Below are positions 1,440 to 43,215 of a stretch of DNA of 46,753 bases, piece after piece (the stretch's first letter is position 1; each line of letters begins with the position of its first letter). The notes under the pieces were generated by a model, which was given only the letters and a program-made list of their open reading frames with translations, was not told the DNA's origin and did no database searches. A program made the position numbers and the translations under genes. The DNA lies in contig CACXFC010000164.1 of assembly GCA_902766835.1 (NCBI GenBank), positions 1 through 46,753 of the forward strand, read 5' to 3'. Source of the stretch: an uncultured Coriobacteriaceae bacterium. GTDB lineage: Bacteria > Actinomycetota > Coriobacteriia > Coriobacteriales > Atopobiaceae.

Positions 1440-3104
1440 ATGGCGAAACAGAAGACGCCGCTGCGGATTATCCCGCTTGGCGGCTTAGACGGCATTGGCA
1501 AAAACATGACGGCCTTCGAATACGGCAACGACATGGTGCTCGTTGACGCAGGCCTCATGTTTCCCGATGACGAGCAGCCCGGCATCGACCTTGTGCTGCC
1601 CGACTACACCTATGTCCTCGAGAACGAGGAGAAACTGCGGGGCATCATCATCACCCACGGCCACGAGGACCACACCGGCTCGCTGCCGTACCTGCTGATG
1701 GACCTTACGCGCAAGGTGCCCATCTACTCCAGCAAGCTGACCCTCGGCTTCATCGAGGGCAAGCTCAGCGAGCACAAGCTCACCTCGCCTAAGCTGCGCG
1801 AGGTAAGCGATGGCACGCACCTCACGCTTGGCGTGTTCAATATCGACTTCTTCTCGATGACCCACTCGATCCCCGCGGCACTGGGCGTGTACATGCGCTG
1901 CCCGGCGGGCTCGGTCATGCACACGGGCGACTTCAAGCTCGACCAGACCCCCATCGATGGGGTCACCCCCAACTACCAGGCCATCAACAAGTTTGCTGGC
2001 ATGGGCGTCGATCTGCTGCTTTCCGACTCCACCAACGCGCTCGAGCCAGGCTTCACGCCCTCCGAGGCGGCTGTGGGGCCGCAGCTGCGCCACATCATCA
2101 AGAATGCGCCGGGCCGTGTCATCGTGGCCTCGTTCTCGAGCCATATCCATCGCTTGCAGCAGGTCTGCGACGCTTCCGTTGCGGTGGGCCGCAAGGTCAT
2201 CGTAACCGGCCGCTCCATGATCACCAACACCAAAGTGGCGCGTGAGCTGGGCTACCTGCACATCGACCAGGAGATGCTCATCGACGCCTTCGACATGGGC
2301 AACATCCCCGACAACCAGATAACCATCCTGTGCACGGGCAGCCAAGGCGAGCCGCTCTCGGCACTCTCGCGCATGGCCAACGGTGCGCACAAGTCGCTCT
2401 ACATCAACGAGGACGACACGGTCATCATCTCGGCCACGCCTGTGCCTGGCAATGAGAAGAGCGTGCAAGGCGTCATCAACGCGCTCTCGAAGATCGGGTG
2501 CACGGTCTATGACAAGTCGAACACGCTGGTGCACGTCTCGGGTCACGGCAGCCAGGAGGAGCTGAAGCTCATGCTGGCCATGGCCAAGCCCACCAACTTC
2601 ATGCCCGTGCATGGCGAGGCCGTGCACCTGCGCGCCCATGCGAAGCTCGCGCGTCAGATGGGCATTGACGAGGACAACATCTTCATCGCCGAGAACGGCG
2701 ATACGCTCGAGATGCGTGACGGCGTGGTGCTGTGGGGAGAGCCTGTCGACTCGGGCGTCGTCTACGTGGACGGCCTCGCCATCACCGATGCCGACCCCTA
2801 TGTCTTCCGCGACCGCAAGAAGCTCGCGAGCGACGGCATTGTCACCTGCGTGGTTACGGTCTCGAAGCGTCGCAGTCGCATCGGCGAGATCGAGATTGCC
2901 AGCAGGGGCGTGTCGTTCTCGGTGAGCGACGAGGTCAACGCCGAGGCAATCGCTGCCGTTCGTGCGGCCCTCGAAGAGCTGCAGGAAGCAGGCAACTCCA
3001 GCGTCGAGCAGCTGCGCAAGGGCGCGCGCAACGCGCTTTCGAGCTACCTGTGGTCGTCCACCAGAACCCGGCCGATGGTCATCCCCATCGTCATGGAGGT
3101 CTAG
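1440..3104 (+). CDS. rnj: Ribonuclease J (metallo-beta-lactamase ribonuclease)
   Basis: This 554-residue protein is a zinc-dependent endo/5'-3' exoribonuclease of RNA maturation and turnover. The metallo-beta-lactamase signature HGHEDHTG lies at residues 73-80, with HTGDFK and a beta-CASP region (SFSSHIHRL, GRSM) downstream. FMPVHGEAVHLRAHA is the typical RNase J motif before the C-terminal domain. The length fits the family. The frame is open further upstream, but the ATG at 1440 has a GGAAGGAA ribosome-binding site and begins where family similarity begins. The gene is followed after 3 bases by ftsK, so the two are probably co-transcribed. Identification is secure. Confidence 0.95.
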   Translation: MAKQKTPLRIIPLGGLDGIGKNMTAFEYGNDMVLVDAGLMFPDDEQPGIDLVLPDYTYVLENEEKLRGIIITHGHEDHTGSLPYLLMDLTRKVPIYSSKLTLGFIEGKLSEHKLTSPKLREVSDGTHLTLGVFNIDFFSMTHSIPAALGVYMRCPAGSVMHTGDFKLDQTPIDGVTPNYQAINKFAGMGVDLLLSDSTNALEPGFTPSEAAVGPQLRHIIKNAPGRVIVASFSSHIHRLQQVCDASVAVGRKVIVTGRSMITNTKVARELGYLHIDQEMLIDAFDMGNIPDNQITILCTGSQGEPLSALSRMANGAHKSLYINEDDTVIISATPVPGNEKSVQGVINALSKIGCTVYDKSNTLVHVSGHGSQEELKLMLAMAKPTNFMPVHGEAVHLRAHAKLARQMGIDEDNIFIAENGDTLEMRDGVVLWGEPVDSGVVYVDGLAITDADPYVFRDRKKLASDGIVTCVVTVSKRRSRIGEIEIASRGVSFSVSDEVNAEAIAAVRAALEELQEAGNSSVEQLRKGARNALSSYLWSSTRTRPMVIPIVMEV

Positions 3105-3107
3105 TCC

Positions 3108-5855
3108 ATGGCGACACGCAAGAAGACGAACAGCGGACGCGCAAAGCGCAATGCGCCACGCGGTGCCAAGGCACAGCGCCAGGCTATAGCCATGCCGCAG
3201 CTCGGCAGCACGGGCAACGACATCGCGGGCCTCGTGCTGGTGGTGCTTGCCGTGGCCATGATGGTCGCGCTGCAGATGCCCAGCTCGGCGCCGGTTACCT
3301 ATGTAACGGGCGAGGCGCTTGAGCTTCTGTTTGGTGCCGGTGCGATGCTCTTTCCCATCGTGCTGCTCGTCTTTGCGCTCACCTTCTTCATCGACAACGA
3401 GGAGCCCCTGTCAGGGCGCCTCGCCTTCGGGCTGACGCTCATCACGGTTTCCGTGCTGAGCATAGTCTCGATCACCTATCCCGGAGCGCAGCAGGACAGC
3501 TCGCTGGTGCTTGACCACAGCATCCTGCGCATGCGCGGAGGATATGTGGGCGGCGGCATCGCCTGGGCGCTGCTGCGCACGGTTGGGCGCGAGGTGGGCA
3601 TCGTCATCCTGGTTGGCGCCATCATCTGCGGCATTGTCATCTGCGGCTTCTCCATCTCCGACACCGTGAGGCGCGTGCGCGAGGGCATGGCGTCAATTGG
3701 CGAGTCCATCCATGGCGCCTCGGAGGACTTTCGCGCCCGTCGCGAGGAGCGCCGCGAGCGCCGCCTGGCCGAGCGCGAGGCCTATGAGGACTACGGGGCC
3801 TATGAGGATGACTACGACTTTGTGGACGAGCGGCCCTACGAGGAGCCGAAGACTACCTACATCGGTGCGCGTACCTCGACGGTTCTGACGCGCAACATTG
3901 CCGCGAAGAGCGAGCGTGCGGAGGCCGTGCAGCCGTCCGAGCCGCGCACCGTGCGCAGGGGCCCCGGAATTGGCGAGGCTGTCACCACGCTGATTCAACG
4001 TCACCTGCCCGTCTTCGACGACTATGACGACGAGTATGACGACTACGACGATTACGACGATGACTATGCGGACGATTTCGACTACGACGAACCCGTCGAG
4101 GAACCCGTGGTCGAGGCGCCGCGTGAGCCCGCCCGCACGCAAGCCGCACCTGCGAAGAAGGAAGAGGCCATCCCCGACTTCCTGCTCAAGAAGGAGCCTG
4201 AGCAGCCTGCGGTGACGCAGCGGAGGAAGACCACGAGGCGCGCCCCGGCAAAGACGGCTGCGGCGGCCTCCGCCTCGACGCAGAATGCGGGGAAGACCAT
4301 CGAGCCTGCGGCACCGCAGAAGATCAAGGACGCCAACGTCAAGGTCAAGAGCAGTGTGGCAACAAGCCGTCCGGGCGACGATGACGAGACCTACGACCTG
4401 CCGCCGCTCTCGATGCTCTCGTCCAACCCCCAGAGCGCCTCGAGTGCCAGCTCAAAGGCCGAGATCGACCAGACGATGGCGCGCCTGCAGGGTACGCTGC
4501 GCGAGTTTGGGCTTACGAGCCGCGTGGTCGACTACGTCTCGGGCCCGCTGGTCACCACCTTCCGCGTGGAGATGGGCGAGGGAGAGCGCGTCAACAAGAT
4601 CCGCAACCTCGAGGACGACATCGCCCTTACGCTTGCCGCCGAAAAGGTGCGTATCTTCGCGCCCATCGCGGGCACCTCGTACGTGGGCATCGAGATTCCT
4701 AACAAGACCAGGCAGAACGTGCATCTGGGCGATGTGCTGCCCTATGCGAAGGGCGGACCGCTCGAGGTTGCCATCGGCCGCGACTCGGCAGGCAAGCCCG
4801 TCATCGCCGACATCGCAAAGATGCCGCACATGCTGGTGGCAGGCACCACGGGTTCGGGCAAGTCGGTCATGATCAACTCCATGATCATGAGCCTGCTCAT
4901 GCGCGCCACCCCCAAGCAGGTGCGCCTGATCATGGTCGACCCAAAGCGCGTCGAGTTCAAGGGCTACAACGGCATCCCGCACCTCTATGTGCCCGTGGTC
5001 ACCGAGCCTCGTCAGGCGGCCAGCGCGCTGCAGTGGGCTGTCTCCGAGATGGAGCGTCGCCTGAAGGTGTTCGAGCGCGCGGGCGCCCGCAATATCACGG
5101 TATACAACGAGATGTGCACCACCGGCAAGCTCTCCGAGATGGACAATCCGCCCGAGCCGATGCCTTACCTTGTCATCGTGATCGACGAGCTCTCCGACCT
5201 TATGATGGTTGCGGGCAAGGATGTCGAGGCGTCAATCGTGCGCATCGCACAGCTGGCTCGTGCGGCGGGCATCCACCTTGTCATCGCAACGCAGCGCCCC
5301 TCGGCAAACGTGGTAACGGGCCTCATCAAGTCCAACATCGACAGTCGCGTGGCGCTGAAGGTCTCATCGGGCATCGATAGCCGCGTCATTCTGGACGAGA
5401 CCGGCGCCGACCGCCTTCTGGGCAACGGCGACATGCTCTTCAAGGACCGCGGCTTGGCTCCCAAGCGCGTGCTGGGTTGCTACACCTCTGACCCCGAGAT
5501 CGAGTCGGTTGTCGACTTCATCCGCGATCAGGGCGAGCCAGACTACCACGAGGAGATCCTCTCTGCCGTGGTTCCCGGCCAGCCCGGTGGCGGGGGAGCG
5601 GCTACGGTGGACGATGCCGATGACCCCCTCATCTGGGAGGCGGCGCAAATAGTCGTGGAATCTCAACTAGGTTCGACATCCGGGCTACAGCGCAGGCTCA
5701 AGGTTGGGTACGCTAGGGCTGGTAGGATAATGGACATGCTAGAGGCGAAGGGCGTAGTGGGCCCTGGCCAAGGTTCAAAGCCACGCGAGGTCCTGCTCGA
5801 CGAAGAGGGTCTTGAGGATCTCCGCGTGCAAGAAGAGAAGTATCGGGAGGTGTAA
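3108..5855 (+). CDS. ftsK: DNA translocase FtsK/SpoIIIE
   Basis: This 915-residue protein is a septum-anchored ATP-driven pump that moves chromosome termini through the closing septum. The N-terminal ~190 residues carry about four hydrophobic membrane segments after a basic start. A long linker follows, rich in Arg/Glu and then in Asp/Tyr repeats (near residues 305-325). The motor has the Walker A GTTGSGKSVM with its Lys at residue 585, the Walker B region LVIVIDELSDLMMV and the FtsK/SpoIIIE signature LARAAGIHLVIATQRPS. The C-terminal ~70 residues are the winged-helix gamma domain that reads polar DNA motifs. The ATG lies 3 bases after the rnj stop, so it is in the same operon. Confidence 0.95.
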   Translation: MATRKKTNSGRAKRNAPRGAKAQRQAIAMPQLGSTGNDIAGLVLVVLAVAMMVALQMPSSAPVTYVTGEALELLFGAGAMLFPIVLLVFALTFFIDNEEPLSGRLAFGLTLITVSVLSIVSITYPGAQQDSSLVLDHSILRMRGGYVGGGIAWALLRTVGREVGIVILVGAIICGIVICGFSISDTVRRVREGMASIGESIHGASEDFRARREERRERRLAEREAYEDYGAYEDDYDFVDERPYEEPKTTYIGARTSTVLTRNIAAKSERAEAVQPSEPRTVRRGPGIGEAVTTLIQRHLPVFDDYDDEYDDYDDYDDDYADDFDYDEPVEEPVVEAPREPARTQAAPAKKEEAIPDFLLKKEPEQPAVTQRRKTTRRAPAKTAAAASASTQNAGKTIEPAAPQKIKDANVKVKSSVATSRPGDDDETYDLPPLSMLSSNPQSASSASSKAEIDQTMARLQGTLREFGLTSRVVDYVSGPLVTTFRVEMGEGERVNKIRNLEDDIALTLAAEKVRIFAPIAGTSYVGIEIPNKTRQNVHLGDVLPYAKGGPLEVAIGRDSAGKPVIADIAKMPHMLVAGTTGSGKSVMINSMIMSLLMRATPKQVRLIMVDPKRVEFKGYNGIPHLYVPVVTEPRQAASALQWAVSEMERRLKVFERAGARNITVYNEMCTTGKLSEMDNPPEPMPYLVIVIDELSDLMMVAGKDVEASIVRIAQLARAAGIHLVIATQRPSANVVTGLIKSNIDSRVALKVSSGIDSRVILDETGADRLLGNGDMLFKDRGLAPKRVLGCYTSDPEIESVVDFIRDQGEPDYHEEILSAVVPGQPGGGGAATVDDADDPLIWEAAQIVVESQLGSTSGLQRRLKVGYARAGRIMDMLEAKGVVGPGQGSKPREVLLDEEGLEDLRVQEEKYREV

Positions 5856-5860
5856 GCCAC

Positions 5861-7477
5861 GTGGATAGGCCACTTTTCAGCGAAATGCTCGTTGATAGGC
5901 GCAGGCAGCTCGGCCTGTCCATCAAGCAGGCCTCCAATGTGCTGCGTCTCAAGGAAGAGGTGCTCGTAGCCTTCGAGGAAGGCGACTTCGACGCCATCCC
6001 CAAGAGCGGCTACGCACAGGGCATGCTCTCGTCGTATGCACGCTACCTCGGCCTCAATGCAAAGACGGTCGTCAATCAGTTCTCGACCGACCTTTTCGAG
6101 CACGAGCGTGGTGCGGGGTCTCATGAGGCGCGCAGGAGGAGCCGCCGCAATCGCGATGCGGACGACGGCCCGCTCTATGAGGTACCCCAGGCAGCCGCTG
6201 TGGGCCAGACGGGCCGGCGTACCTACGTCGAGTCGCATGGCTTTTTGCCCACGTCGGGCGGATTTGCCGGTGACATGGGTGACTTTGCCACCACTTCAAG
6301 CCCGCGTCCGCGCTATAGCGGCTCGTCTCGTTCGGAATCTTCCGACGAGTCGTACCCGCAGGGACGCCCCTACACCTCGCGCGTGCCGATGACCACTTCG
6401 GTGAGCCCCCTGGGGCAGGCGCAGCGCCAGCGCCCGGTCACACGCACCTCGTACGGTGCGCAAGATGCCTACGGGCGCGCGTCGCGCTATGGCGCGGGAG
6501 CCTCATATGGCGCACAGCCGCCACGAGACGAGGTCACCACACGCCGCGTGATGCCGTCGCAATACCGCGATGACATGCGTCTTGACAACGATGGCGGCAC
6601 CTACCAGGCGGCCTCAACGTCAGCCGGCCGCAGGTCTTCGCGCAACATCGCCAACACGCAGCGCCCGAACGTGCGCCGCCGCAACGGTGCCAGCAGCCGG
6701 GGCCGCGGAAGGGCACAGGAGCCCCAATACGGCGGAATCGCCGGCATGCTGCAGACATTCTTCGAGGACCGCACGCGTGTCATCTTCCTGGTGGCCATCG
6801 TCGTCTGCATCGTGCTCACGCTGATCATCACCCTCTCCGTGCGCTCGTGCGTCAACCAGGGCCAGACCAACGATAGGTCGGTCACGGTAACCGAGCAGAA
6901 GGAAGAGGAGCAGACCAGCGAGGAGAGCGCAGTCTCCGAGGAAGAGGAGCGCCGTGCCCGCGAGGAGGCTGCTGCCGCAAAGGCCGCCGAGACCGAGTCC
7001 TCTGCCGCAGAGCGCACCATTGAGGTGACGGTGGCCGAAGGCGAGGTCACCTGGCTCGAGATTGCCTATGACGGCAACAGCGACGTTGCCGAGACCGTCA
7101 CCGGCCCCTGGAACAGGACCTATACCGTCCGCCAGTCCATCTCGATCAACGTGAACGACACCTCTGCCGTCACGGTGACCGAGGCGGGCAAGAAGCTCGA
7201 GTTCGACTCCAAGGCATCGGGCATCGGAACCATCACCATCCAGGTTTCTAAGAAGGGTGAGACCACCGATGCGGCAGCCGAGGGCACCGAGGGCAAGGAT
7301 GGCCAGACGGATGGCACCACGACGCAGGGCGAGGGCCAAGGTGAGACGTCTGAGTCCCAAACCGGCACGGGCAACCTCGGAGAAGAGATCGTCGAGGGCT
7401 ACGAGCTCGCCGAGGATGGCTACTACTACGGCCCCGAGGGCTACTATGACGCAGACGGGACCTTCTACCCGTACTAA
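5861..7477 (+). CDS. RodZ-like (YmfM-type) HTH membrane protein
   Basis: This 538-residue protein begins at GTG 5861, six bases after the ftsK stop, with GGGAGG just upstream. Residues ~1-75 form the RodZ-type helix-turn-helix (SEMLVDRRRQLGLSIKQASN). A long Arg/Ser/Tyr-rich low-complexity region follows, then one transmembrane segment (VIFLVAIVVCIVLTLIITL, ~residue 305-325). An acidic Glu/Ala stretch leads to an extracytoplasmic beta domain of the RodZ C-terminal type (about residues 385-465). The tail is Gly/Tyr-rich, ending in GTFYPY. RodZ proteins link MreB or cell-wall machinery to the membrane. The position between ftsK and the pgsA-cinA-recA group matches ymfM in Bacillus. Function is inferred from domain order and context. 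Confidence 0.8.
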   Translation: MDRPLFSEMLVDRRRQLGLSIKQASNVLRLKEEVLVAFEEGDFDAIPKSGYAQGMLSSYARYLGLNAKTVVNQFSTDLFEHERGAGSHEARRRSRRNRDADDGPLYEVPQAAAVGQTGRRTYVESHGFLPTSGGFAGDMGDFATTSSPRPRYSGSSRSESSDESYPQGRPYTSRVPMTTSVSPLGQAQRQRPVTRTSYGAQDAYGRASRYGAGASYGAQPPRDEVTTRRVMPSQYRDDMRLDNDGGTYQAASTSAGRRSSRNIANTQRPNVRRRNGASSRGRGRAQEPQYGGIAGMLQTFFEDRTRVIFLVAIVVCIVLTLIITLSVRSCVNQGQTNDRSVTVTEQKEEEQTSEESAVSEEEERRAREEAAAAKAAETESSAAERTIEVTVAEGEVTWLEIAYDGNSDVAETVTGPWNRTYTVRQSISINVNDTSAVTVTEAGKKLEFDSKASGIGTITIQVSKKGETTDAAAEGTEGKDGQTDGTTTQGEGQGETSESQTGTGNLGEEIVEGYELAEDGYYYGPEGYYDADGTFYPY

Positions 7478-7523
7478 TACGTAATCATGGCGCGGCACTA
7501 TGGCGCCAGAGAGGAGCGGCCAC

Positions 7524-8021
7524 ATGGCCAAGGAATCGAGCTTCGACGTCGTTTCGACCGTCGACATCCAGGAGGTCGACAACGCCTTCCAGCAGACGGC
7601 GCGAGAGCTGACGCAGCGCTATGACCTGCGCCAGTCGGGGGCTTCTATTGACTTTTCCAAGAAGGATCAGTCCTTTACGGTGTCGGCGCCCTCTGAGTTT
7701 GTGGCCGGCCAGGTAATCGACGTGCTCGGCAGCAAGCTCGTGCGTCGCCAGATCGACCTCTCGGCCATTCGCTGGGACAAGCCGCAGGCAGCCGCTGGTT
7801 CGTCGGTTCGCCAGGTGGGCCGTGTGGTCCAGGGCATCGACCAGGATACGGCCAAGAAGATCGCGAAGGACATCCGCGACCTCAAGCTCAAGTGCAAGGC
7901 TACGGTAGAGGGTGACAAGCTGCGCGTGTCCTCGGCATCGAAGGACGTGTTGCAGCAGGTAATTGCGATGCTAAGGGAGGCAGACTATGGCCAACCCCTC
8001 CAGTTCGTCAACTACCGCTAA
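7524..8021 (+). CDS. yajQ: YajQ family nucleotide-binding protein
   Basis: This 165-residue protein has two ferredoxin-like halves typical of YajQ. It starts MAKESSFDVVSTVDIQEVDN and carries the family's central QGIDQDTAKKIAKDIRD. Family members bind nucleotides, and some bind cyclic di-GMP; the cellular role is unsettled. An earlier ATG at 7500 is in frame, but the ATG at 7524 has GAGAGGAG upstream and matches the usual family start and length. Its 3' end overlaps rimO by 35 bases, which suggests translational coupling. Confidence 0.93.
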   Translation: MAKESSFDVVSTVDIQEVDNAFQQTARELTQRYDLRQSGASIDFSKKDQSFTVSAPSEFVAGQVIDVLGSKLVRRQIDLSAIRWDKPQAAAGSSVRQVGRVVQGIDQDTAKKIAKDIRDLKLKCKATVEGDKLRVSSASKDVLQQVIAMLREADYGQPLQFVNYR

Positions 8022-9339
8022 GGGTACCTTTCTCGTCGTAACGCTGGGATGTGCCAAGAACGAGGTCGACAGCGACCGCATGCGCGCGCTGCTCGTGCAT
8101 GATGGCTTCAGCGAGGTCGATCTGGTCGACGACGCCGACGTCATACTGATCAACACCTGCTCGTTTCTGGCTTCGGCCACGTCCGAGTCGATCGAGACGA
8201 CCCTTGAGCTTGCCGAGGAGGTTGCGCGCGGCGTGCGCACCCGTCCCATCATCATGTGCGGTTGCGTTCCCTCCCGCTACGGAAGCGAGCTTGCTGGCGA
8301 GCTTCCCGAGGTGAGCGCATTCGTGCGTGCCGACGAGGAGGACGGCATCGTCGATGTCGTGCGACAGGTTCTCGGCCTTGGCAGCGAGCCCATTGCCTTG
8401 GGTGACGGGCGCGTGCTCAGGACGGTCGAGGGCACCAGTGCCTACGTCAAGATATCCGACGGCTGCGACCGCTTCTGCTCGTTCTGTGCGATTCCCTACA
8501 TTCGCGGGCGCTACTACTCGCGTCCCGCCAGCGAGATCTGCGACGAGGTCCATAGCCTCATGGAGGGCGGCGTACGCGAGATCGTGTTGATTGGGCAGGA
8601 CACCGGCATCTGGGGATGCGACCTGGGCGAGGGCAACACGCTCGCCAAGCTGCTGCGCCTTGTTGCCGCGGAGGTGCGTCCCTACGGCGGGTGGGTGCGC
8701 GTGCTCTACCTGCAGCCCGAGGGCATGACCGACGAGCTGATCGAGACCATTCGCGACGTCGACGAGGTGCTTCCCTACATCGACATTCCCATCCAGCACT
8801 GCTCGGCGCGCATCCTGGACCGCATGGGACGCTCGGGTTCGGCTGACGAGCTGCGTGCGCTCTTTGCACGCCTGCGTCGGGAGATTCCCGGCATGGTTCT
8901 GCGTACGACCGGCATGGCTGGCTTTCCCGGCGAGACCGACGAGGAGGCCGACGAGCTGGCAGCGTTTCTGGCCGAGCAGGAGTTTGACTACACGTCGGTA
9001 TTTGCCTATTCGGCTGAGGAGGGAACTGCCGCAGCCGAGCTGGACGGGCAGATTGACGAGGATGTCAAGCTGGAGCGTACGCAGCGCCTGATGGACATCG
9101 CCGAGACCATGGGCTTTGCCGCTACGGCTCGCCACGTGGGAGAGCGTGTCAAGGTGATTATCGATGGCGTGGAAGAGGGCGAGGCCGGTCCCGAGCTCAT
9201 TGGCCACGCCTGGTTCCAGGCACCCGACAGTGATGGCGCCATTCACATCGAGGAGGGCGAGGCCTCCGTTGGTGACATCGTCACCTGCGACCTCGTCGAC
9301 TCGTTCTGCTATGAGCTTATTGGCGAAATGGTTGTGTGA
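7987..9339 (+). CDS. rimO: Ribosomal protein S12 methylthiotransferase RimO
   Basis: This 450-residue radical-SAM enzyme methylthiolates an aspartate of ribosomal protein S12. The N-terminal UPF0004 domain has its three cluster cysteines in TLGCAKNEVDSDRM, INTCSF and MCGCVPS. The radical-SAM CxxxCxxC motif is CDRFCSFC, followed by AIPYIRGRYYSR. The last ~65 residues are a TRAM RNA-binding domain. The sequence around the motifs (GQDTGIWG, PIQHCSARIL) separates it from the MiaB paralogue at 15852. The start has GGGAGG upstream, inside the end of yajQ. Confidence 0.95.
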   Translation: MANPSSSSTTAKGTFLVVTLGCAKNEVDSDRMRALLVHDGFSEVDLVDDADVILINTCSFLASATSESIETTLELAEEVARGVRTRPIIMCGCVPSRYGSELAGELPEVSAFVRADEEDGIVDVVRQVLGLGSEPIALGDGRVLRTVEGTSAYVKISDGCDRFCSFCAIPYIRGRYYSRPASEICDEVHSLMEGGVREIVLIGQDTGIWGCDLGEGNTLAKLLRLVAAEVRPYGGWVRVLYLQPEGMTDELIETIRDVDEVLPYIDIPIQHCSARILDRMGRSGSADELRALFARLRREIPGMVLRTTGMAGFPGETDEEADELAAFLAEQEFDYTSVFAYSAEEGTAAAELDGQIDEDVKLERTQRLMDIAETMGFAATARHVGERVKVIIDGVEEGEAGPELIGHAWFQAPDSDGAIHIEEGEASVGDIVTCDLVDSFCYELIGEMVV

Positions 9340-9351
9340 GAGGAGTAGACC

Positions 9352-9966
9352 GTGCAATCGAGAAGGCAAGGGCGCACCGATACCATTTGGACGCCCGCGA
9401 ACGTGGTCACCCTGGTGCGTATCGTGTTGATGCCCGTATGGTTACTCATCGCCGAGGCGGCACGCATCGACGGAGCGCTTGGTGATGGCTCGGCTGTTGC
9501 CTGGACGTCATTCCTCCTGTTTGCTGCCATTGCCCTTACCGACAAGCTCGATGGGTACCTGGCGCGCAGCAGGGGAGAGGTGACGAACTTCGGCAAGTTC
9601 CTCGATCCCATCGCCGACAAGCTCTGCGTGACCTGTGCCATGCTCTACCTGCTGGAGCTCGAGCTGGTCCCCAGCTGGGCGGTCCTGGTCATCCTCGCGC
9701 GCGAGTTCATCGTGTCGGGGCTGCGCATGGTCGTGGCAAGCGAGGGCACGGTCATTGCCGCGAGCAACCTGGGCAAGTGGAAGACGGCCGTGACCATGCT
9801 TGCCATCGGCGGCTTCCTGCTATCCGTCACCATTCCCGCCGGCAAGCTTGCCACGATGCTCGAGCTGCTCTCGCATGCCCTTATGACGGCTGCCGTCGTG
9901 CTTACGGCGTGGTCGGGCATCGACTATCTGGTGAAGTCGTGGCCCGCCGTCGCACACTCGAAGTAG
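9352..9966 (+). CDS. pgsA: CDP-diacylglycerol--glycerol-3-phosphate 3-phosphatidyltransferase
   Basis: This 204-residue integral membrane enzyme makes phosphatidylglycerol phosphate, the first committed step of phosphatidylglycerol synthesis. The CDP-alcohol phosphatidyltransferase signature is clear in DKLDGYLARSRGEV followed by GKFLDPIADK, giving the D-G-A-R-G-D-D pattern. About five hydrophobic segments are visible. It starts at GTG 9352 behind GAGAGGAG, 12 bases after rimO. A more distant paralogue lies at 31396-32202. Confidence 0.92.
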   Translation: MQSRRQGRTDTIWTPANVVTLVRIVLMPVWLLIAEAARIDGALGDGSAVAWTSFLLFAAIALTDKLDGYLARSRGEVTNFGKFLDPIADKLCVTCAMLYLLELELVPSWAVLVILAREFIVSGLRMVVASEGTVIAASNLGKWKTAVTMLAIGGFLLSVTIPAGKLATMLELLSHALMTAAVVLTAWSGIDYLVKSWPAVAHSK

Positions 9967-9976
9967 GCGAGCTGGC

Positions 9977-10483
9977 GTGACAGAAGAGGTACGTGCGCAG
10001 GCCGCGCAGGTCGTGCGGGCAGCCTGCGATGCAGGGCTCACCGTCGGATGCGCCGAATCGTGCACGGGCGGCCTGGTGAGCGGGGCCCTTACGGCAATCC
10101 CTGGGTCGTCGGCAGCGGTGCTTGGCGGCGTCGTGAGCTATGCCATAGAGGTTAAGAAGGCCGTGCTGGGCGTCTCGGGCGCCATCATCGACGATCCAGA
10201 GCTTGGTGTGGTGAGCGATGCCTGCGCCATCCAGATGTGCGAGGGGGCTCGCCGCGTGCTCGGGTGCGACATTGCGGTGTCGGTGACAGGCATTGCAGGG
10301 CCTGGCGGAGCAGAGCCGGGAAAGCCCGTGGGCACGGTTTGGTTTGGCATATCATCCACACGCGGCGCGCAGGCGCACCATCGCTTGTTCCCTGGCAACA
10401 GGGACGAGGTCAGAGAGCAGGCTGTACTGTTCGCTCTTTCCCTTCTGGGTGAAGAAATAGCGGAGCTTTCGCGCGTGCGCTAG
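9977..10483 (+). CDS. cinA: CinA C-terminal domain protein (nicotinamide-nucleotide amidohydrolase type)
   Basis: This 168-residue protein consists only of the CinA C-terminal domain. GCAESCTGGLVSGALTAIPG, VVSYAIEVKKAVLGV and GIAGPGGAEPGKPVGTVWFG are diagnostic. In studied homologues this domain deamidates nicotinamide mononucleotide for pyridine-nucleotide salvage. The N-terminal MoaB-like domain of long CinA proteins is absent, which is common and not evidence of truncation because the GTG at 9977 follows pgsA by only 10 bases. It is the last gene before the SOS promoter of recA. Confidence 0.9.
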   Translation: MTEEVRAQAAQVVRAACDAGLTVGCAESCTGGLVSGALTAIPGSSAAVLGGVVSYAIEVKKAVLGVSGAIIDDPELGVVSDACAIQMCEGARRVLGCDIAVSVTGIAGPGGAEPGKPVGTVWFGISSTRGAQAHHRLFPGNRDEVREQAVLFALSLLGEEIAELSRVR

Positions 10484-10632
10484 GCGCTGCGACCTGCGTG
10501 CGACAGGTGGGATGAACCTGTTTGCCCAGATGGCGGGTGCAAAGGCGCCCGTATGGTGCATGCCGTGCAACCTAGCTGCGACCGGAAGCGTAGTCTCGTG
10601 CAACATGTGCCTGATAGCCTCAATATTAGCGT

Positions 10633-10661
10633 TTGACACACGAACGGTTGTTCGCTATTGT
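10633..10661 (+). promoter_or_regulatory. recA promoter with LexA (SOS) box
   Basis: TTGACA (10633-10638), a 17-base spacer and TATTGT (10656-10661) form a good promoter. The spacer holds CGAACGGTTGTTCG (10641-10654), which fits the Bacillus/actinobacterial SOS box pattern CGAAC-N4-GTTCG exactly. LexA bound here would block RNA polymerase. recA starts 28 bases downstream of the -10. Confidence 0.92.
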
Positions 10662-10689
10662 AAGGACAGTCAATTCGTCTGGGGGTATC

Positions 10690-11808
10690 ATGGCTAGAAG
10701 CAAAAACGTATCGCGCGAGATCCACGAGAAGACCTATGGGGAAGAGCGCGACAAGGTTATCGACAACACCACCAAAGAGATTCTCAAGAAGTTCGGCAAT
10801 GGCGCCATCATGCGCTTTGGCGACTCAGGCCCCGAGCTAGAGATCGAGGCCATTCCCACCGGCTCTATCGCCCTTGATGCCGCCCTAGGCATTGGTGGTG
10901 TACCGCGCGGCCGCATCATCGAGATCTATGGACCCGAATCTTCGGGCAAGACGACGCTTTCGCTCGAGATCCTCGCCGAGGCGCAGGCCATGGGCGGCGT
11001 GGTTGCCTTCATCGACGCCGAGCACGCACTCGACCCCGGCTATGCCGCACGCATTGGTGTCGACATCGACGAGGTGCTCATCTCGCAGCCTGACACCGGC
11101 GAGCAGGCGCTCGAGATCTGCGACATGCTGGTGCGCTCCGGCGCCATCGATGTCGTAGTAATCGACTCCGTGGCGGCACTGGTGCCTCGCGCCGAGATCG
11201 AGGGCGAGATTGGCGACAGCTCCGTTGGCCTTCAGGCACGCCTGATGAGCCAGGCCCTGCGCAAGCTTGCAGGCTCGCTGGCCAAGTCGCGCACCACCTG
11301 CATCTTCATCAACCAGCTGCGCGAGAAGATCGGCATCATGTTCGGCAACCCCGAGACCACCCCTGGCGGCCGTGCCCTCAAGTTCTTCTCTTCGGTACGC
11401 ATGGAAATCCGTCGCACCGACACCATCAAGAAGGATGGCGACATCATCGGCAACCGTGTGCGCGTGAAGGTCGTCAAGAACAAGGTTGCTCCTCCGTTCC
11501 GCCAGGCCGAGTTCGACATCATGTATGGCACCGGCATCTCCAAGGAGGGCTCGCTGCTCGACCTTGCCGTCGATTACGACATCGTCAAGAAGTCTGGCTC
11601 TTGGTACACCTATGGTGAAGAGCGCCTGGGGCAGGGCCGCGAGGCTGCAAAGGAGACTCTTGCCACCACGCCTGACCTCTACGACGAAATCAACCACTTG
11701 GTCCGTGTGGCCTGCGGGCTCGAGTTTGGTGACGAGCCGGTTGGCGAGCCCCTGCTCGATGGTGACGCCGGCGCTTTTGACGCCGCGGCCCCGATGGGCC
11801 TCGAGTAG
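10690..11808 (+). CDS. recA: Recombinase RecA
   Basis: This 372-residue protein forms filaments on single-stranded DNA for strand exchange and stimulates LexA self-cleavage. The Walker A motif GPESSGKTT is at residues 81-89. [18 protein letters not shown] and the DNA-binding loop sequence [17 protein letters not shown] are canonical. The ATG at 10690 is chosen over earlier in-frame starts because it follows GGGGGT and lies downstream of the SOS promoter. Its stop overlaps the recX start by one base. Confidence 0.98.
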
Positions 11809-38322: not shown

Positions 38323-38619
38323 ATGGCACTTGTGGGAACCTATGCGGTCACGGTCGACATGATGGGCAGCACGGCTGACGGCACCGTGAGCATCGAGGAG
38401 CGCAACGGCGTCCTGACGGGCACGGTCGAGGCCGCGGGAATGAAGGCCCAGGTGGAGAACGCCAAGGCCAGCGGCTCGTCGTTTACCGGCTTCATAGAGG
38501 GGCCTACGCCCTTGGGCACCATGCGCTTCAAGGTGAGCGGAACCGTTACGGGCGACACGATCAAGGGCAAGCTGAAGGCCGGCCTCATAAGCGCGAGCTT
38601 CCAGGGCAAGCGCATCTAG
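38323..38619 (+). CDS. Hypothetical small beta-rich protein
   Basis: The 98-residue product begins MALVGTYAVTVDMMGSTADG and is made of short Thr/Gly/Val-rich strands, suggesting a small beta barrel or sandwich. No signal peptide or catalytic motif is visible. AAGGGGGC precedes the ATG. It is a lone + strand gene between dinB and a - strand remnant, whose 3' end it overlaps by 35 bases. The function is unknown. Confidence 0.72.
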   Translation: MALVGTYAVTVDMMGSTADGTVSIEERNGVLTGTVEAAGMKAQVENAKASGSSFTGFIEGPTPLGTMRFKVSGTVTGDTIKGKLKAGLISASFQGKRI

Positions 38620-38926
38620 GGCAAGCAAGCCTGCCAGCAGGACAAACACGGAAATCAAGGGACGCGCCCTCTTTAAAGATCCTGTTGGAGGAAATTCCCC
38701 TGTTGATGGCGTGCCAATCCAAGCGCAAGTAGCGCCGGCCGCCGAGTGCTAGGAAGAAGATCAGCGCGGTAAGAGCGCGGCCGACCATGAGGGCCATCGT
38801 CGCGTCGAGGTTCGCCAGAAGCGCGATGGCAGCGGCCACCTCGCCTGCGACGATGTAATACAAAAGGAAGCACCCAAGGACTAGCAGCATCTTCTTGGTT
38901 CCAGAACCCTTTATGCGCTCACCCAT
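38585..38926 (-). CDS. Short membrane protein, probably a truncated remnant
   Basis: The 113-residue product has two hydrophobic helices in its first ~65 residues (MLLVLGCFLLYYIVAGEVAA and MALMVGRALTALIFFLAL). After about residue 80 the reading runs through a REP-like repeat and becomes Cys/Arg/Pro-rich, unlike a membrane protein. The first part could be the N-terminus of a larger membrane protein cut short by a repeat-associated deletion. GAGGAAGC precedes the ATG. Translation is plausible but a function is doubtful. Confidence 0.45.
   Translation of the reverse strand: MGERIKGSGTKKMLLVLGCFLLYYIVAGEVAAAIALLANLDATMALMVGRALTALIFFLALGGRRYLRLDWHAINRGISSNRIFKEGASLDFRVCPAGRLACPRCACPGSSRL
38651..38680. 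repeat. REP-like sequence, copy 3 (half element)
   Basis: The first 20 bases match the left arm of the copy at 46532 at 18 positions (core AAGGGACGCGCCCT). The second arm is missing or decayed. It falls in the 3' part of the truncated membrane-protein frame. Confidence 0.7.
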
Positions 38927-38949: not shown

Positions 38950-41900
38950 CTACGCGGCGTCAGCAAGCTCCTGATCATTCGTTGCGGCGACATCAGCCGT
39001 CTCGCCTGCGTCAGTCTTCTCGCTTGCATCGGTCTTCGTGCCTGCATCGGTCTTCGCGCTTGCGTCGGTCTTCTCTTCGGCAGCAGCCTCGGCGCCCTCG
39101 TCGGCCACCGTCTCGGCAGATGCCCCGTTATCGTACTTCTCGACGATCGTGTAGTACTCGGCGGAGGCGCTGCGGATGTGACGACGCAGCTCGGCAAAGT
39201 CGTAGAGTCCGTCGCCGTTCTTCGTCAGGCCGGCAAACGAGAGCTCCACTGCCTCCGGCTCCTCATCGCCGGTAAGGATGGTCATGTTGCGCAGCTGGTC
39301 GACGTTCTGGTACATGAGCCGCACACGGCCATAGAGCTTGCCCTCGCTGTCAGCCCACTTCTCGAACACCAGCATCGAGCCGATGGGGGTCTTGGCCTCA
39401 ATGGCTCCGGGCAGCTCGTATTCCTCGGCGCCCAGTGCCGCCATCACGCTCAGCAGGTTGGAGTCGTGGCCGCACAGGAACGAGAACTTGCGGTCCGAGC
39501 GGTCAAGCTCGCTGCCGATGGTCTCAAGCAGGGGATGCGCGGCGTTTGCCGCAACCAGGGGCGACCCAAAGAGCAGGTCGCAGTAGGTGTCCTTGATGCT
39601 CGAGATGGTGGCCATCTGCTCGGGCGTGAGGGTGGTGCCAAAGGCGCCCTCTTCGTCAGACTCGTAATACTGAAGCACCAGCGCGTCACTCAGCTGCGTG
39701 GCGGTCTTGAGCGAGCCGGTCAGCGAAGGCTCCTTGCCCTCAACAAGCTCGATCTGGGTGTCATCGGTCACCAGGTCGGTGAGCTTGCCCGTGGCGTAAC
39801 CCGAGGACAGACGGTAGTCGAGCACATCCTCGAGCAGGTCGTAGGCACCGGCAAGGTCCTCGCCCACCGTGGCAATGCTCTGCTTGCCACTCAGCTCCAG
39901 AATCTGCTCCTGCACTGCCGCGTTATAGGAATCGGAGGTGAAGTTGAGGCACGGCAGGAAGACGGGATCCATGGCGTCGAAGGCCGCCTGCGTCTCAATC
40001 TGGACATCTGCTGCGGGCAGCATGCCTGCAGCGAAGTAGCGGGCCGTTGCGCGCGTGCGCTGCTTGCCGTTGGCGTAGAAGCGTGCCTCGCCGGCTGTGG
40101 GCTGCCAGTTCTCGGGGATGAGCTCCTCGGTTTGCAGCCAGGTGCGCACGTACTGGCCAAGCAGGGTCTCGAGCGCGCCGCCCTTGAGCGACAGCTCGCT
40201 GGGCTTGGAGGTCCACTCGATCCACTTGTGCGGGGTGGCAACTTCCAGTGTGGAGCCGCTGCCGGTCAAGGGAGCGCGGATATTGTGGCGCGCAAGCACC
40301 ACCACTTCCTGCAGCTGGTAACCGCTGCCGGGGTTGCCATAGGGTGCGCTGGCGGAGGCGTAGACGGTCGGCCCCTGCGCCGCAGACGTCACGCTTTCGT
40401 CAGTCGTACCCGTCTCGTCTGCTCCGGTGACTTCGGTCGTCTCGCCCGTGGTGTCAGACACGACGCCCGAGGCGTCAGTCGCAGCGTCTGTGGCATCGCC
40501 TTCCGTAGTGGCACCCTCGGCGTCTTCCGCCGCGGCGTCGGCCTTCTCGTCGGCAGCCGCGTCGGCGCTTGCGGTCTGCTTGTCAATGTCGGTCAGCACG
40601 TAGCCGCAGTCGGGGCACTCGGCAGACTTGCCGCCAGGAATGGTGGTCCACTTGGTGAGCTTGTGGGCGCCCTGAACCTCGGCAAGCGGCGATGCGTAAC
40701 CCTTGATGGGAAGGTTGTCGTAGCTCAGCAGGGCACAGTTCTCGCTCCCAGCGGCCAGTGCGGCGGTCTCGTCGGCCCAGTCAACCCACTGGTCCTCGCC
40801 ATAAGAAACGTAGCTCTCACCCTGGTTGACGATGCCCACGCGGTAGATGGCGTCCCTACCCGCAGGATAATCGCCCTTCTCCATGGCCGCCTCGAAAATC
40901 GTGCGGCTGGCGCCCAGGGTATTGACAAGTGCGTACTTGACGCCGTCTGCGGTGCGCACGCGGTTGAGCACCACGATGGAGATGCGCTCTCCTGCGTCAA
41001 GGGCAATGTTGCGCGTAAGGGCGATGCGATGGTAGCCGCCGTACTTGAAGGTCTGAGAGGTACTGTCAAGCAGGATGCCATCCGTGGGGCTCTTAGCATC
41101 TGCCGCCAGCTTGTAGACCGACACGCTCACCTTGGTGTTGAGGTCGCCCGTGAGGCTCGACACCTCTTCGAGCACACAGTCCTCATCCGCCTCGAAGATG
41201 TTGGCCGCATACACGTGATCGTCGAACAGCACCGAGCTGTAGGCATCAACGGGCATGAAGTCGCTTTCCATGATGATGGCATGCTCGGTTGCGGGCTTGT
41301 CCTCGTCCATCACAAACTCGAACGACTCGGCATTCTCCAGCGTCTTGTCGTAATAGGAGAGGTGGAAGTAACCGCTCTCGCCCCAGCTGGTGCCCCAGCT
41401 GTTGCGCACGATCCAAGCGCCATTCTCGGGCGGCTGATGCCCCTCGAGGAAGTTCTCCTTGGGATATGCGTCATCCCAGCCCACGATGGCCACGCAGTGG
41501 TTGGGCATGAGGTCTTCGTCGGTATACTGTGCGTATTCGGTCACATCGCCGTTCTTCACGAAGTTGATGAAGGGGCCATGCTCCTGACCTGAACTCGAAG
41601 CTTCCCTCTCTTCCACATCCTCGACGGGCAATCCGAAGTGCTGCGTATTGATGAGCATGACGAGCTGGTCGCGCGTAAGGCTCTCGACGTCATAGAAATC
41701 ATCCGCAAGGTTGTTCATGCGCATGCGGGCTTCCACCACGCGCTTGAGCTTGCCAAGCGGAATGCTGTCTATCTCCTCGTAGCCGTTCTTGATGCGCAGG
41801 TACAGCAAGACGGCATTGCGGCGAATGCCGGGCAGCCCCTCGACGATGGTGTCGGTCTCCTTCACGATATCTTCCTCAGATGAGATGGGAGTCGACGCAT

Positions 41901-43215
41901 CGGCATAGTAGAGGACGGCAACGGGGCGCCCTTCGAGCAGCTCGCTCTTGATGGCTTCGGTGCCCGCAGGGTTGTAGACGTATTCGCCGTTCTCGTCATG
42001 GGCGGCGGGAACGGGGAGCACGTTTGCGTTCTTGAGGGCGAAGGACTGTACGAAGCGATCCTCCTCAGGCAGGGTCCAGTCGCCGGAACTGACGACCTCG
42101 CCATCACTGTTCTGATAGGGATAATCCTTTTCCAGCGTTACGCCAACGCCCGCAGCCAATGCCGCAGACGAGGAGCCATAGTCGCCGCCACAGTTGTAGA
42201 CAGCGTTTATGTCCGCAGTCTCTTTGGCGGGAAGAACGTAGGAGCCCTCCCCTGCCTGGGACACATCATAGGGGTACTCTCCATCGGGATAGGCGTCCGC
42301 CTCAGGAAGGTGTGTGAGGCCAAACCACGCGAGATGCTTCTCAGAGAGGTCCAGGGCCGCGCCGTTATCCTGCTCATAGCCCTCGACGGTTGTGTTCAGC
42401 GCGCTGAGAATGCTGGTCTCGCAGGCAGACATGGTGGCAAAGCTCCAACAGGTTCCCCAGGGGTCCTGGTCCCTGACGGGGGCGACGACGCCCGCCTCGC
42501 GCAAGTCAAACGCTGCGGGCAGCGAGCTTGCACGGGACTTCCAGTCAAGCTGCGAGTAGAACGCGGCCGAGTAGAAGTTGTCACCCATAAGGCTGCTGGC
42601 AACGGCCTCAAACTTCTCGCCCAGCTTCTTTTGGGCGTCTGCAGCGGAGATCGTTTCGGCGTCGGTTGCAGCGTCGTCGGCAGCTCCGGCCTCATCGGCA
42701 GGCTTGGTCTCGCCATCACCTGCCTTGTCCGCGTTGTCGGAAGTGACGGCCTCGTCCGTGGCGTCCTTGGACTCGTCGGCAGCATCCGCAGTCTTCTCGT
42801 CGCTGGCATCAGCAACGGCTGCGCTGTCATCTGCTGCGGCATCGCCCTGCTCGGACTGGGCCTCCAGCGCCTGCTGGTCGGTGTCAGCGGCGGCAGCCTC
42901 TTCCTCGCTGGCGGCTTCGTCCGCGTTTGCAGCGGCCTCGTCGTCGGCGGCGTTCGCCTCGTCTGCAGGCTCGCCTGCGGCAGTAGCCTCTTCCTCGGCA
43001 GCAGTCTCGTCTGCCGCCTCCCCTTCAGCGGTAGTGTCAGCAGCAGCGTCTTCCTGTGCGGTAGTCTCGTGCTGCTGGGCAGCCTCCTGTTGGGTTGACC
43101 AACCACCTTGCGGCAAGGGTAGCGAAGAGGTATCGCATCCCGAAATGGCTACCACCAGCGCAAGAATCGCGACAAGGCTGAGGGTGAACCGCTGACGTTT
43201 GGCTTTCGCGTCCAT
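38950..43215 (-). CDS. Lipoprotein with fused papain-like (C1) protease and histidine acid phosphatase domains
   Basis: This single 1421-residue frame starts with a lipoprotein signal (lipobox AISGC, Cys27), so it should be anchored outside the membrane. Residues ~40-190 are an Ala/Asp/Glu low-complexity stalk. A C1-type cysteine protease follows (~225-660), with Gln250 and Cys256 in [12 protein letters not shown], His573 in [13 protein letters not shown] and Asn605 in [17 protein letters not shown]. Residues ~660-850 look like the beta-rich lectin-like domain found after such proteases. A short CPDCG segment and a second acidic stalk (~890-950) come next. The C-terminal ~450 residues are a histidine phosphatase of the phytase/glucose-1-phosphatase branch, with His977 in LARHNIRAP and His1250-Asp1251 in [14 protein letters not shown] precedes the ATG. 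All catalytic residues are intact. Substrates are unknown. Confidence 0.9.

Follow-up and report, generated by a model that had tools for sequence, protein, structure and literature searches.

The window, the 46,753-nucleotide stretch of DNA from an uncultured Coriobacteriaceae bacterium that we analyzed, carries on its minus strand, at 38950–43215, a single stop-free frame of 1421 amino acids. Within this one frame, Pfam detects Peptidase_C1 (5.6e-20), Lectin_like (1.6e-15) and His_Phos_2 (7.8e-14), all above the curated cut-offs. An earlier note on this DNA had described an uninterrupted lipoprotein frame joining a papain-like protease to a histidine acid phosphatase (HAP), and this was borne out: the domains are homologous to known ones, and the join recurs in a second species, G127. 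The C1 protease and the histidine phosphatase of that description both stand, the latter as a branch-2 enzyme; it had missed the lectin-like domain and the glucose-1-phosphatase subfamily of the phosphatase. Since an antisense frame of 887 amino acids overlaps the 1421-residue frame, frame length is weak evidence, and it is homology and conservation that carry the case. The features of the locus are as follows.

38950..43215, minus strand: whole fused gene, 1421 amino acids (frame and profile matches)
43135..43215, minus strand: lipoprotein signal, residues 1–27, lipobox ISGC27 (sequence; LGGC in the G127 relative)
42601..43134, minus strand: N-terminal acidic low-complexity stalk, residues 28–205, about 31% Ala and 30% Asp+Glu
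41308..42522, minus strand: C1A papain-like peptidase domain, about residues 232–636, with Gln250, Cys256, His573 and Asn605 (PF00112, Cwp84 4d59, alignment)
41593..41877, minus strand: helical insert, about residues 447–541 (alignment and predicted model)
40768..41223, minus strand: lectin-like domain, residues 665–816 (PF18560, 1.6e-15; same domain in Cwp84)
40582..40671, minus strand: H...CPDCG motif, residues 849–878 (natural C-terminus of the unfused orthologue)
40342..40581, minus strand: inter-domain acidic Ala/Thr/Asp/Glu linker, residues 879–958, 80 residues (poorly conserved, 31% identical)
39133..40341, minus strand: predicted Agp-like HAP domain, residues 959–1361, with His977, Glu1162 and His1250-Asp1251
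38953..39132, minus strand: acidic C-terminal extension, residues 1362–1421, with a conserved ELADAA end
38323..38619, plus strand: small convergent gene, 98 amino acids, a syntenic marker outside the enzyme (same place and orientation in G127)

The N-terminal signal reads VVAISGC27 in the window and, in the second species, LALVLGGC, in agreement with the lipobox first reported, and from this lipobox, read by eye, we infer a surface location for the protein. Acidic low-complexity sequence occupies three stretches (residues 28–205, 879–958 and 1362–1415) rather than the two long stalks originally proposed, and the N-terminal stalk is longer in the G127 relative. The lectin-like domain and an H...CxxC motif (residues 851–870) sit between the protease and the linker. 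An internal start for a separate phosphatase was considered and rejected: the linker holds only GTG and TTG codons, without a good Shine-Dalgarno sequence.

Two catalytic domains

Gln250, Cys256, His573 and Asn605, which match PF00112 in this order on a papain fold, had been numbered correctly in the earlier note and are invariant in an alignment of 15 peptidases. The best solved relatives of the peptidase are Cwp84 structures from Clostridioides difficile (1.6e-22). A model built from 15 relatives, of moderate confidence (mean pLDDT 80), aligns with Cwp84 4d59 at Z 29.1 and 2.8 Å over 395 residues spanning the protease and lectin-like domains, and with plant and animal papains and cathepsins at Z of about 19–20. 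The stretch before residue 228 is of low complexity and poorly modelled. PF18560 scores 58.1 bits against a cut-off of 27. By sequence and predicted structure, the protease is of the Cwp84-like papain type, its C1 domain being followed immediately by a lectin-like domain. An insert of ~95 residues, predicted to be helical, lies between the Cys and His parts and is found, among the 15 aligned sequences, only in four orthologues: those of the window, G125, G126 and G127.

His977 (in RHNIRAP) and His1250-Asp1251 (in CGHD), also numbered correctly at the outset, are invariant in an alignment of 25 phosphatases. PF00328 (His_Phos_2, branch 2) scores 52.3 bits against a cut-off of 23.6, with H977, R980, P982 and H1250-D1251 conserved. 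The NCBIfam glucose-1-phosphatase family PRK10173 matches at 6.9e-91 and 305 bits, below its equivalog cut-off of 425, and the AppA phytase family PRK10172 at 171.3 bits, below its cut-off of 585. Escherichia coli Agp matches in sequence at ~1e-65, and a model of the HAP domain (mean pLDDT 90) aligns with Agp structures at TM 0.84–0.91 and 33% identity, with phytases ranking after. Glu1162, invariant in the 25 HAPs, aligns with Agp Glu196, the residue gating the active site. The counterparts of His977 and Asp1251 in Agp are His18 and Asp290, identified by experiment as the nucleophile and the general acid, respectively (PMC8938923).

These comparisons of sequence and model indicate that the phosphatase domain is Agp-like, closer to the glucose-1-phosphatase Agp than to AppA-type phytases. 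Of the phytase/glucose-1-phosphatase type assigned in the earlier note, the second half (305 bits, and the Glu196 gate) is thus the closer fit than the first (171 bits to AppA phytase). As the curated cut-off is missed (305 of 425 bits), naming the domain Agp goes too far, and its substrates may differ from those of Agp. Given the closer Agp match, phytate would be a weaker guess as substrate than sugar or inositol phosphates. A 12-residue EF-hand-like stretch after the phosphatase, with weak calmodulin-type matches, was rejected as a feature: by reading, it coincides with the conserved C-terminal end of Agp and AppA.

Inheritance and origin of the join

Could the frame be an assembly join, or a chance read-through of two genes? 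The window belongs to a draft MAG of 291 contigs, and the orthologous peptidase of G125 is unfused, two points in favor of such an artifact. However, a second fusion of 1539 amino acids, 57% identical, is present in G127 (JAGAVX010000170.1, Atopobiaceae bacterium RGIG8822, from water deer ileum), a MAG that comes from another sample, was assembled independently and represents a different species of the genus. Its parts are in the same order, and the 98-amino-acid convergent gene (60% identical) adjoins the fusion downstream in both species. Since both the join and the downstream gene recur in an independently assembled second species, misassembly is effectively excluded, and we regard either artifact as highly improbable. 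The earlier note had set the fusion against homologues always encoded separately, with a stop in the linker at residues 890–960; the second species is fused, and its linker, which differs in sequence, has no stop. We conclude that the join is genuine and has been inherited, rather than created by the assembly.

Between the window and G127, the enzyme parts are 58% and 69% identical, the linker 31% and the tail 38%, and changes in the enzyme parts fall mostly at third codon positions. Both enzyme parts are more strongly conserved than linker and tail.

In G133, a member of the same genus, the surrounding block is kept (an acetyltransferase-like gene, a 371-amino-acid gene, an alpha/beta hydrolase, dinB and the small gene), and the fusion gene is missing from it. 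The family of the small protein, which has no Pfam match, occurs in 11 of the 18 genomes of the genus; in the window, G133 and G131 it is encoded close to dinB. The window also has, immediately downstream of the fusion, a short membrane-protein-like frame (38585–38926, minus strand) that has no match in the second species and looks like a truncated gene remnant.

The fusion is carried by 2 of the 18 genomes of the genus that were searched, both from related bacteria of ruminant guts, and was found nowhere else; among the Coriobacteriia genomes searched, the domain pair thus appeared in one species besides that of the window, G127. Of 397 genomes searched in the order, 33 had HAP matches, as did 19 of the 398 taken from across the class, and a search of 396 genomes across the phylum added one further, weak match, with at most four candidates per genome scored in each search. 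Apart from the two fused copies, every HAP of the order and class searches falls in a frame of ~600 codons or less, and those found in the order are all separate genes. No second HAP was found in either fused genome. A plasmid collection contained HAPs alone, with no fusion and no record covering 80% of the query. Since only two of the searched genomes of the genus carry the fusion, and none was found elsewhere, it is not an essential pairing.

In a phylogenetic tree, the fused HAPs form one branch (support 100/100), to which the genus's stand-alone HAPs do not belong. In G125 (JAFUBJ010000201.1, from roe deer jejunum), the only genome in which an orthologous peptidase could be read to its end, the protein stops right after CxxCG, where the linker of the fusions begins; a HAP is encoded separately, on another contig. 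The long peptidase of G126 is interrupted by a contig end. These sequences are most simply explained by one fusion event; the fusion is rare and of one origin. In the unfused G125 peptidase, moreover, a TAG codon lies in frame before the catalytic Cys (L061, 128–130); the gene may have decayed, or the TAG may be a base error in the draft assembly.

A search of the open-access literature found no earlier description of a C1 peptidase paired with a HAP, in keeping with the earlier note, whose author knew of none. The protein is a new combination of two well-known enzyme domains, and the fusion is real, rare and vertically shared.

Proposed activity and a shared C-terminal motif

Proteases and acid phosphatases are nutrient-scavenging activities in the gut, where phytate and sugar phosphates occur alongside dietary protein. 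We think it likely that the gene encodes one lipid-anchored extracytoplasmic protein, born of the joining of two ordinary Atopobiaceae surface enzymes, in which a Cwp84-like protease and an Agp-like HAP both act as surface enzymes, releasing peptides and phosphate. Signal peptidase II would lipidate Cys27, and the acidic stalk (~180 residues) would keep the protease/lectin unit away from the membrane. The protease would cut proteins by the Cys256/His573 mechanism, while the phosphatase, on its flexible acidic tether, would attack small phosphomonoesters, such as glucose-1-phosphate and inositol phosphates, by a phospho-histidine mechanism at His977 with Asp1251 as the acid. Peptides and phosphate would then become available for uptake at one and the same cell surface. 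Activities, substrates, surface location and the benefit of fusion are what we infer from the parts.

If both enzymes work, what is gained by joining them? The gain is probably shared anchoring, a fixed 1:1 stoichiometry and co-localization, rather than direct channelling of substrate; direct coupling on phosphoproteins or phytate-protein complexes is possible. It is conceivable, if rather unlikely, that only the phosphatase benefits, having swapped its own lipoprotein signal for a longer surface module, made up of stalk, peptidase and lectin-like domain, that places it beyond the cell wall, with protease activity incidental. Most stand-alone HAPs have their own short lipoprotein signal and stalk, which would make for a simple replacement, and the linker is long and unconserved. 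However, both fused species keep the protease under constraint, with its catalytic residues unchanged, so it has not decayed to a mere anchor. We give still less weight to the idea that the fusion is a co-secretion precursor, in which the linker is cut in cis by the peptidase, or by another protease, to leave a bound protease and a shed phosphatase. A long, acidic, low-complexity linker is typical of protease-accessible tethers, and Cwp84 has a cleavable propeptide and itself cleaves the S-layer precursor SlpA (PMC4089489), yet no cleavage motif is kept in the linker between the two species.

A surface protein with two working enzymes, the reading we prefer, would be a natural single-chain protease-phosphatase, a new domain combination and a ready-made scaffold for a bifunctional feed enzyme. 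It would also be a test case for whether an advantage arises when two unrelated hydrolases are tethered to a single surface anchor, a question made testable by the close species with and without the fusion.

The extreme C terminus has a pattern of its own. L-x-x-A-A ends 25 of 27 distinct HAP C-termini, the fused ones included; in the fusion, ELADAA (window 38953–38970) is kept last, with the acidic tail before it. When the pattern ELxxAA-stop was searched in eight genomes, most real proteins ending in this way were membrane-anchored phosphatases of other folds: beyond HAPs, the carriers were HAD-type (DxDGT) proteins and one PGA_cap/CapA-like protein, together with a few membrane proteins of unassigned function. 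Across the family, relatives of the HAD proteins end in AA in 28 of 28 cases, with L fifth from the end in 19 and V in 7; because all of them belong to a single family, the motif has few independent cases. Loci with a [LV]-x-x-A-A end are L146:747-1970, L181-L193 and L197-L226. In L188 (G129), 1685–4123 holds a tandem pair of HAD-type anchored phosphatases, both ending in ELADAA. Genome-wide counts of ELxxAA were near those of the backward control, so that the motif, rather than being a general signal, is confined largely to a few anchored proteins.

We tentatively suggest, as an idea more apt to fail than to hold, that the last five residues, [LV]-x-x-A-A, may be an undescribed signal that marks membrane-anchored extracytoplasmic phosphatases of unrelated folds for a common sorting, processing or turnover step, kept at the extreme end of the fusion despite an acidic insertion of ~50–70 residues. 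A copy of the ssrA tag was considered and rejected: at the genome's tmRNA match, the tag, read by eye, ends in MALAA, with its leucine elsewhere. ARAGORN found no tmRNA gene at that match.

Comparison with known systems

The peptidase half resembles Cwp84 of C. difficile (PDB 4ci7, 4d59; PMC4089489) in having the same lectin-like domain after a papain fold, in its Gln/Cys/His set and in a surface location, which for the fusion protein the lipobox suggests. Whereas Cwp84 has cell-wall-binding domains and no phosphatase, the fusion combines a lipobox and acidic stalk with a C-terminal phosphatase, and its Pfam matches up to E = 1 include no cell-wall-binding (CWB2) repeats.

With E. coli Agp (PDB 1nt4, 6rmr; PMC8938923), the phosphatase half shares the fold, the RHN[LI]RAP and GHDSN motifs, and the Glu196 gate, and the two are 33% identical over 395 columns. 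Agp, with ~390 residues, is free in the periplasm, whereas the HAP of the window is tethered to a protease and does not reach the equivalog cut-off of NCBIfam. AppA-type phytases (PDB 1dkp, 4aro) share the branch-2 histidine phosphatase fold and the catalytic His/Asp, but the match is clearly weaker (171 of 585 bits; 28–30% identity), and the HAP of the window has the Agp gate glutamate.

Further counterparts are the stand-alone HAPs of Atopobiaceae and its sister family (e.g., L033, L051, L052), whose homologous domain is 55–61% identical and has the same C-terminal LxxAA; they differ in being separate genes of ~480–520 amino acids with their own signal or anchor and a short stalk. One stand-alone HAP lipoprotein (L077 in G074) adjoins a lipoprotein that resembles, by eye, a DHH-type pyrophosphatase, and a further C1 plus lectin-like peptidase lies ~2.5 kb from it (4968–6425, 6596–7792 and 8958–11183); this is possibly a surface cluster for scavenging phosphate and peptides.
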